Positions 41,287-44,469 of a stretch of DNA of 44,610 nt are shown here, in pieces. Position numbers and translations under genes: made by a program. The notes below the pieces were generated by a model, which was not told the origin of the DNA, did no database searches, and saw only the letters and a program-made list of their open reading frames with translations. Where the stretch lies: contig JAPPLB010000025.1 in the NCBI GenBank assembly GCA_028819575.1, positions 1 to 44,610 on the forward strand, read 5' to 3'. The first letter of the stretch is position 1. Every line of letters starts with the position of its first letter. The DNA is from Bryobacterales bacterium (GTDB taxonomy: Bacteria > Acidobacteriota > Terriglobia > Bryobacterales > UBA6623).

Positions 41287-41949
41287 TCATCTGTTCACGT
41301 TACGCTCGCCGAAGATAGCGGTGCCGACGCGGACGAGCGTCGAACCTTCCTGGATGGCCGCTTCCAGGTCGTGGCTCATGCCCATGGAGATTTCTCTGAG
41401 CTCGTGTTTTTCGGCCAAACTCCGTAGCCGTCGGAAATACGGGCGGACTTTCTCGGGGTTTTCGAACCAGGGAGGCATGCCCATGAGTCCACGAAGGCGA
41501 AGATGAGCCAGGCTGCGGCAATATTCGACGACCGCAGACAGGTCGGATTCATCGAGCCCGCCCTTGGTTTCTTCGGGCGACAGCTTGACTTCAAGAAAGA
41601 CATCGAGCGGTTTGGCGCAGTTGTCGAGGCGGCGTGCGAGTTTGATGCTGTCGACGGTTTGGATCACCTGGAAGAGCCGCGCGGCGGGTTTGGCCTTGTT
41701 GCTTTGGAGCTTGCCGATGAAGTGAAACATGGCGCCGGGCAGATCGCCGAGCTCCGTGGACTTGCGGTCGAACTCCTGGATGTAGTTCTCGCCGAAATGG
41801 CGTTGTCCGGCCTGGTAAGCTTCACGGACGTCGGCAGCAGACTTGACCTTGGAGACAGCGACGAGTGTGATTGCGTTGGGATCGCGTCTTGCGGAAAGCG
41901 CTGCCTTCTCGATGCGTTCACGGACCCGGGCGAGACGGTCGGCGATCAT
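41287..41949 (-). CDS. YggS/PLPBP family pyridoxal-phosphate homeostasis protein
   Basis: A 220-residue TIM-barrel protein. The PLP lysine is Lys34 in VAVSKVKS; GENYIQE, HFIGKLQSNK, LRLRGLMGMPPW and SMGMSHDLEAAIQEGSTLVRVGTAIFG follow as in the family. It buffers PLP and affects amino-acid metabolism. ATG 41949 was chosen: minus-strand TAGAAT lies 7 nt upstream, implying a leaderless mRNA; ATG 41958 sits upstream of that predicted transcript start. It is divergent from tmk, whose start has the same arrangement. Confidence 0.93.
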   Translation of the reverse strand: MIADRLARVRERIEKAALSARRDPNAITLVAVSKVKSAADVREAYQAGQRHFGENYIQEFDRKSTELGDLPGAMFHFIGKLQSNKAKPAARLFQVIQTVDSIKLARRLDNCAKPLDVFLEVKLSPEETKGGLDESDLSAVVEYCRSLAHLRLRGLMGMPPWFENPEKVRPYFRRLRSLAEKHELREISMGMSHDLEAAIQEGSTLVRVGTAIFGERNVNR

Positions 41950-41956
41950 GGAGACC

Positions 41957-41962
41957 ATTCTA
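41957..41962 (-). promoter_or_regulatory. -10 box TAGAAT 7 nt before ATG 41949 (probable leaderless start)
   Basis: Minus-strand TAGAAT, then GGTCTCC, then ATG. It faces away from the tmk -10 box at 42024, so both divergent genes of this 86-bp region appear to be leaderless. Confidence 0.5.
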
Positions 41963-42023
41963 TGTGCTGGGCTGGAAACAACTGGCAGGACCGAGGGCTG
42001 CCAGGCGGCGTGTGAGTGAAGGC

Positions 42024-42029
42024 TATAAT
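42024..42029 (+). promoter_or_regulatory. -10 box TATAAT 6 nt before TTG 42036 (probable leaderless start)
   Basis: A perfect TATAAT followed by CGCAGC and the TTG start of the thymidylate kinase gene. No Shine-Dalgarno and no -35 at normal distance. Confidence 0.6.
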
Positions 42030-42035
42030 CGCAGC

Positions 42036-42698
42036 TTGAAGCAGGGACTGTTCATCACGCTCGAAGGGATTGACGGTAGTGGGAAGACGACGCAACTCCA
42101 CCGCTTGGAGACGTTGCTCACGGACAGAGGGTATGCGGTCACTTTGGCCCAGGAACCCGGTGGGACGCGAGTCGGGCGCGAGATCCGGCGGCTCCTGCTC
42201 GACGCGGCGAGTTCGGATTTGAGGCCAATCCCCGAATTGCTCCTTTACTTCGCATCACGTGCGCAGAATGTCGAAGAGGTGATTCAACCTGCATTGCGGG
42301 AGGGCCGGGTCGTACTGGCGGATCGTTTCACCGACGCAACCGTGGCATACCAGGGCTATGGCCGGGAACTTGGTGTCCCGGCGGTTCGCCAAGTGGAAAG
42401 CGTCGCGTGCCAGGGAGTCCAACCGGATCTTACGATCCTGCTGGAGATCGATATCGAGACCGGTGTGAGACGAGCCTTGCACCGCAACGCCGAACAGAGC
42501 GACGACGAGAGCCGCATGGAGCAGGAAAGCCGAGAGTTCCATGAGCGAGTCGCGAAGGGGTACGCCGCACTGCTGGCTGCCGATCCCGAACGGGTCAAGA
42601 AGATCGACGGCCGAGGATCGATTGATGAAGTCGCTACGAGAATCGAAGCTGAAGTAGATCTCTTTTTCGCGAAGAGCTCTGCGGAGCCGGGCGGATGA
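42036..42698 (+). CDS. tmk: Thymidylate kinase
   Basis: A 220-residue dTMP kinase that makes dTDP for DNA synthesis. P-loop GIDGSGKT is at residues 11-18; AQEPGGTRVGREIRRLLLD and VLADRFTDATVAYQGYGREL form the substrate site, and the lid region follows (RRALHRNAEQSDDESRMEQES). TTG 42036 gives the normal start two residues before the first beta strand (KQGLFITLEG), and TATAAT 6 nt upstream supports it; an open frame extends to 41871 but runs into the divergent gene. The stop overlaps the holB start (ATGA, 42695-42698), the usual tmk-holB pairing. Confidence 0.95.
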   Translation: MKQGLFITLEGIDGSGKTTQLHRLETLLTDRGYAVTLAQEPGGTRVGREIRRLLLDAASSDLRPIPELLLYFASRAQNVEEVIQPALREGRVVLADRFTDATVAYQGYGRELGVPAVRQVESVACQGVQPDLTILLEIDIETGVRRALHRNAEQSDDESRMEQESREFHERVAKGYAALLAADPERVKKIDGRGSIDEVATRIEAEVDLFFAKSSAEPGG

Positions 42699-43813: not shown

Positions 43814-44064
43814 ATCGTTTTCCCGACATGCGACGCATCCTCTTGGGGGATGGAAGGCGCGAGTTGCTTGCAGGGGTGAGAGAGATTGTGTTATCCCTAT
43901 GGCAACTTGTACGGCCCCTTTCTTGAGATTTCTGTACGGGCTTGGGTTCTTCGAAGGTCAAAGCAAGAACTATCGGGAAGGAGCCGAGGCTCAGCTCCCA
44001 CCAGAGATCTGTTGATTTACCGGCCGGCCGCCAGACCTTCCGCGATGTGCGGAAAGGGGTTTCG

Positions 44065-44469
44065 ATGAAAGACATCGACGACTCGAACAATCGCAAACTG
44101 ATTCGTCCTTCTCTGAGTAACCTGCGGGATCAGTACACCAACCAAAAACGGCGCGGCGGCGGCCCGAATGGACCGCACCAGAGAGAACGCCGCGGCACGC
44201 CTCCGGGTCAGACCAACGCGGAGAACTTCTATTACGTCAAGCAGATGCAGAACCAGACGCCGATGGTCGTGGTTTTGACCGATGGTGAAGTGTTCCGCGG
44301 CGTGATCGAGTGGTACGACAAGGAGTGTCTGAAACTGAATCGGAAGAACGGCGCAAACCTGGTCATCTACAAAGACAGCATCAAGTACCTGTACAAGGAC
44401 TCAGCAAAGGGAGTGAAGTCGGAAACGTCCGTGAACGGGACGGCTGCCGGCGAGTCGATGACGGCTTGA
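44065..44469 (+). CDS. hfq: Hfq-like RNA chaperone with N-terminal extension
   Basis: A 134-residue protein. An Sm fold occupies about 51-112 (NAENFYYVKQMQNQTPMVVVLTDGEVFRGVIEWYDKECLKL ... NLVIYKDSIKYLY), matching Hfq, which presents RNA to partner RNA as a ring hexamer. Before it is a 50-residue basic, Gly/Arg-rich extension (QKRRGGGPNG..QRERRGTPPG) likely to be disordered and RNA-binding. The canonical YKH motif reads YKD (102-104), so the proximal-face His is replaced by Asp. Start ATG 44065 has GGAAAGGGG upstream; the open frame to 43942 is not supported. Nothing recognisable follows to the window end. Confidence 0.85.
   Translation: MKDIDDSNNRKLIRPSLSNLRDQYTNQKRRGGGPNGPHQRERRGTPPGQTNAENFYYVKQMQNQTPMVVVLTDGEVFRGVIEWYDKECLKLNRKNGANLVIYKDSIKYLYKDSAKGVKSETSVNGTAAGESMTA

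Follow-up and report, generated by a model that had tools for sequence, protein, structure and literature searches.

The closest characterised relatives of the protein described here are the cyanobacterial Hfq proteins (PDB 3hfn, 3hfo; PF21979; NF047718), for which a very low affinity for RNA (PMC10989914) and a role in pilus biogenesis together with PilB and EbsA (PMC10989914; PMC8092324) are reported. Canonical Hfq (PF17209, TIGR02383) is best compared via the Caulobacter protein (6gwk), whose rim carries the arginines R49 and R50 (PMC6561178). Among the literature matches listed for Hfq and Hfq-like proteins in Acidobacteria, no study of the Hfq-related family can be recognised by title, and among those listed for cyanobacterial Hfq with PilB, for a second Hfq or paralog and for an Hfq N-terminal extension, no title names this family. 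Here, we describe a member of it that is encoded in the window, i.e. the whole stretch of 44,610 nucleotides that was analysed, from a Bryobacterales genome. The window gene encodes an Hfq-related protein, the second Sm-like one in this genome next to a canonical Hfq that is encoded elsewhere. In it, a conserved peptide, NRKLIRP, forms the tail and is joined to an Sm fold by a basic linker that varies among relatives. The features are the following:

44065..44469, + strand, gene of the Hfq-related Sm protein, an open reading frame of 134 aa with a Pfam Hfq_1 match
44053..44059, + strand, Shine-Dalgarno-like AAAGGGG, 5 nt ahead of ATG44065, read from the sequence
44089..44109, + strand, N-terminal tail motif NRKLIRP, residues 9-15, conserved in relatives
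44110..44217, + strand, variable basic linker, residues 16-51, net charge +5, from sequence comparison
44218..44397, + strand, Sm/Hfq fold, residues 52-111, with the helix AENFYYVKQMQ and five strands, from AlphaFold2 and Foldseek
44374..44376, + strand, Asp104 at the Hfq His57 position, from alignment to Hfq chains
44398..44466, + strand, C-terminal tail, short and variable, from the alignment of relatives and low pLDDT
42695..43813, + strand, upstream neighbour holB (DNA polymerase III delta' type; PF13177, 6e-38)
41871..42698, + strand, upstream neighbour tmk (thymidylate kinase; PF02223, 3.6e-44 on 41961-42695), start provisional

The original prediction had recognised an atypical Hfq at 44065-44469, and the open reading frame, its Tyr-Lys-Asp triplet (Y102-K103-D104) and an N-terminal extension of about 50 residues ahead of the Sm domain are all there. 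The protein exceeds the cut-off of the Pfam family Hfq_1 “Hfq related” (PF21979) with 37.2 bits against 27 (38.5 bits in the genome search) and barely reaches that of Pfam Hfq (PF17209) with 27.3 bits against 27. It stays below the cut-offs of all four listed NCBIfam Hfq models, among them TIGR02383 for Hfq (25.8 bits, cut-off 61.7) and NF047718 for Hfq_rel_Cyano (32.9 bits, cut-off 52), and the cyanobacterial Hfq-related model is the closest of these by E-value. The predicted Hfq-type Sm fold was borne out by the AlphaFold2 model and by two structure comparisons. The model has the element order of Hfq, a helix at residues 52-62 and then five strands up to residue 111, with 44 residues at a pLDDT of at least 90; tail and linker have low values, and the N-terminal extension is probably disordered. 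At E<=0.001 Foldseek gave 34 matches, all of them to Hfq chains. In the second comparison the best Z of any Hfq chain, 8.0, was that of Synechocystis Hfq, at which other Hfqs were tied with it; three diheme cytochrome chains, with Z 8.2-8.4 tied with Hfq as well, are taken as a common small-barrel resemblance.

With the cyanobacterial Hfq-related proteins the window protein shares the Sm fold, a residue other than His at the His57 position, a loop ahead of the fourth strand in which no residue is missing, and, in the last strand, a Tyr directly following the invariant Ile-x. However, the alignment with them covers the Sm part only and neither the tail motif nor the linker, the score is below the NF047718 cut-off, and the core of the window protein is more basic. 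Similarly, fold, element order and the Lys of the YKH triplet are shared with canonical Hfq, whereas the window protein has no fixed His57, ends in I-K-Y in place of I-S-T, and has its presumably disordered part mainly at the N-terminus, where it carries a conserved motif. The two types also differ in their surroundings, since the window gene lies behind tmk-holB, whereas the canonical hfq of this genome, on contig C88, lies beside an hflX-like gene. This canonical Hfq, found with 96.1 bits in the genome search, carries FKHAIST (...FKHAISTVV), and the next gene downstream presumably encodes an HflX-like GTPase. The original prediction treated the window protein as the Hfq of the organism, a reading that is refuted by the copy on C88; the window protein is therefore a second Sm-like protein. 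A tree was built from 62 columns of 83 sequences, including 39 diverse relatives and 10 of the close set introduced below. In it, the Hfq-related proteins and two cyanobacterial Hfqs split from the canonical Hfqs with an ultrafast bootstrap of 97, where the cyanobacterial rows are two short partial segments and long-branch effects are possible. The Hfq-related proteins alone reach 68 and the acidobacterial canonical ones alone 71.

A scan of species genomes yielded 152 relatives, the best 80 of which, together with the window protein, make up a set of 81 sequences, and 45 of these went into the alignment A1. The record titles of the best 80 of the 152 name Acidobacteria groups, with the exception of one titled Acidimicrobiia, whose typical tailed copy possibly lies on a mislabelled or mis-binned contig. 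Outside the Acidobacteriota, the coverage consists of these best 80 relatives and of 14 control genomes in the family searches; on viral contigs, none of 24 pattern matches was confirmed as a relative. Invariant among the 81 sequences are, in the Sm part, A52-Q62 (AENFYYVKQMQ), G74, E75, G79, E82-D85 and C88, and furthermore K90, R93, N98, K103, I106 and K111.

The Asp at the His57 position, which had been regarded as the replacement of the proximal-site His, is real, as D104 aligns with the Hfq His of Caulobacter and S. aureus, but no constrained site has been changed. The alignment of acidobacterial Hfq-type proteins that had been suggested as a check gave P45, S20, H9, D2 and five others for this column in the 81 sequences, the two Asp being those of the window protein and its 98% twin (L006), and H21, D6, R4, S2, N2, P2, Q1 and A1 in the 39 diverse relatives. 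Since the column varies and Asp recurs, the His57 site is free in the Hfq-related family and Asp is unremarkable there, and the idea that it replaces an essential His was rejected. His is thus present in 9/81 and 21/39 Hfq-related relatives versus 30/30 acidobacterial canonical copies, the latter found by a motif allowing H or N. K103 preserves the Lys of the YKH triplet, so that the window protein has K103-D104 where canonical Hfq has the K-H pair of its proximal uridine pocket. The equivalents of the E. coli Hfq residues Q8/F42/H57 are E53, a variable residue and another variable residue. Judged from the alignment, the RNA-contact residues of the window protein are altered, and its RNA surfaces may be rearranged.

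Whereas the Asp is variable, the tail is not. NRKLIRP is present in all 81 close relatives, with N9, R10, L12, R14 and P15 invariant, six sequences with R for K (K75 R6 at position 11) and four with F for I (I77 F4 at position 13). A looser R[KR]L[IFV]R[PT] occurs in 33 of the 39 diverse relatives, and the pattern was not found in the other six. The seven codons of the motif show many synonymous forms across the 81 loci while the residues remain constant, which indicates that the extension is translated and under selection. Searching the whole genome with the back-translated motif gave one match, in the window gene, and by this strict pattern no second protein. The linker comprises 24-38 residues in the 81 sequences; in those 33 diverse relatives that carry the motif it has 25-64, and its net charge is positive in all 114. 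Its Gly+Arg fraction is 0.33 in the window protein and its twin, 0.22 in the next highest of the 81, and 0.07 in the median. Therefore, the basic N-terminal extension proposed before is real and translated, but its conserved part is NRKLIRP and not the Gly/Arg stretch; “Gly/Arg-rich” holds for the window species and the twin and not for the rest of the 81, and this character is a local quirk of these two. Regarding the Sm core, the charge is +1 in the window protein and on average +1.96 in the 81 and +1.51 in the diverse sequences with the motif, whereas 30 cores of canonical acidobacterial Hfqs average +2.97 and the cyanobacterial segments have 0 and -3. The tail is not universal in Hfq-related proteins. 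A shorter Hfq-related variant that lacks NRKLIRP, reading TGQEALYLxSLSxRQV...GWIEYFDD...NLFIYK[QH]QI, is present in the family f3 at L159, L160 and L161, and these three genomes contain canonical Hfq as well.

As to the neighbourhood of the gene, 21 of the 81 loci, many of which have short flanks, have holB upstream and 13 have tmk there (both were domain-scanned in the window), and a gene that we take from its sequence to be thioesterase-like, mostly convergent, lies downstream in 48; the twin has a presumably transporter-like gene in this place. Gene order across the 81 loci indicates no partner gene.

To describe the distribution we used 247 Acidobacteriota genomes with a completeness of at least 85. 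A1 matches 165 of them, a number that sets an upper bound for the tailed form, as some matches may be the tail-less variant, and a strong canonical Hfq (best E<=4.7e-14) is present in 123. Both types occur in 76 genomes, the Hfq-related type only in 89, the canonical type only in 47 and neither in 35, whereby absences may be overcounted because at most 19 candidates were scored per genome. Among genomes with listed family labels, those of f23 (21), f29 (10) and f42 (9) contain the Hfq-related type only, with one further genome each of f23 (G170) and f29 (G230) matching neither type; the family tallies leave out 30 of the “neither” genomes. One genome (G243) harbors two tailed Hfq-related copies on two contigs (L162, L163) and additionally a canonical Hfq match.

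As the best explanation of the whole, to which we give roughly even chances, we propose that the window protein is a second Hfq-related Sm protein working as an RNA-protein ring adaptor. It would form an Hfq-like ring, which together with the basic linker would contact RNA via the rim (invariant K90, R93 and K103) and not via the canonical uridine pocket. Nucleic acid at the rim is suggested because K90 and R93 are invariant and the linker is basic; moreover, the arginine pair of Caulobacter Hfq falls on R93 in the alignment. The tails, six of them if the ring is a hexamer, would dock a conserved protein partner, since docking is the most plausible role for a peptide that stays so conserved at the far end of a variable linker. 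Thereby the ring would connect RNA and protein, and in lineages without canonical Hfq the Hfq-related protein may be the only Hfq-type protein. The RNA part of this proposal is weakened by analogy, as the cyanobacterial relatives are reported to bind RNA poorly, and by the core charge of only +1 against the canonical mean.

According to a second, rather unlikely explanation, the protein acts in the cyanobacterial mode, i.e. its Sm ring would not work on RNA but bind PilB, the motor of the type IV pilus, and thereby support pilus assembly, with the tail as docking peptide. The grouping with cyanobacterial Hfq in the tree, the poor RNA binding and the work with PilB and EbsA reported for the latter (PMC10989914, PMC8092324), and a His57 site that is not kept argue for it, as do the 16 canonical-only f3 genomes, which also have no strong PilB. 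However, core and linker are basic on average, in contrast to the cyanobacterial segments, and PilB and the protein also occur apart. With strong PilB defined as E<=1e-180, 149 of the 247 genomes have both, 16 the Hfq-related protein alone, including the genome of the window and five of f3, 49 PilB alone and 33 neither; these counts depend on the threshold (134 or 149 with both) and are confounded by clade structure. A strict PilB coupling is not supported by this co-occurrence, although presence and absence alone cannot disprove it.

Even less probable is a diverged canonical Hfq that has lost the uridine pocket and does ordinary Hfq work with altered specificity. That the protein just reaches the Pfam Hfq cut-off and that 89 of the 247 genomes have it with no strong canonical match would agree with this; however, a canonical Hfq is present in the same genome, both types occur together in 76 genomes, the NCBIfam Hfq score is below its cut-off, and the tree separates the two types. 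Finally, a gene-calling artefact with a true start downstream and an untranslated extension, which the original prediction had named as its own refutation and which the low-confidence, probably disordered model of the extension could suggest, is highly improbable, given the synonymous variation of the motif codons, the Shine-Dalgarno-like site at ATG44065 and the finding that the sequence contains no in-frame ATG, GTG or TTG between the first codon and M61, so that any start further downstream would truncate the Sm helix.

What matters most about the window protein is thus no longer its Asp but the existence of a second gene with a tail motif, and NRKLIRP, as a short conserved peptide, provides a handle for finding the partner. 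Returning to the RNA-protein adaptor, it is a tentative and rather doubtful extension of it that much of the phylum uses a second Sm ring whose NRKLIRP tails recruit one conserved partner, and that this ring has replaced canonical Hfq as the only Hfq-type protein in several families and bridges the RNA-binding and the cyanobacterial pilus-binding modes. The family as such would show that the non-canonical Hfq branch known from cyanobacteria is also widespread in an abundant soil phylum, where it often accompanies a normal Hfq and, in several families, apparently takes over its place.
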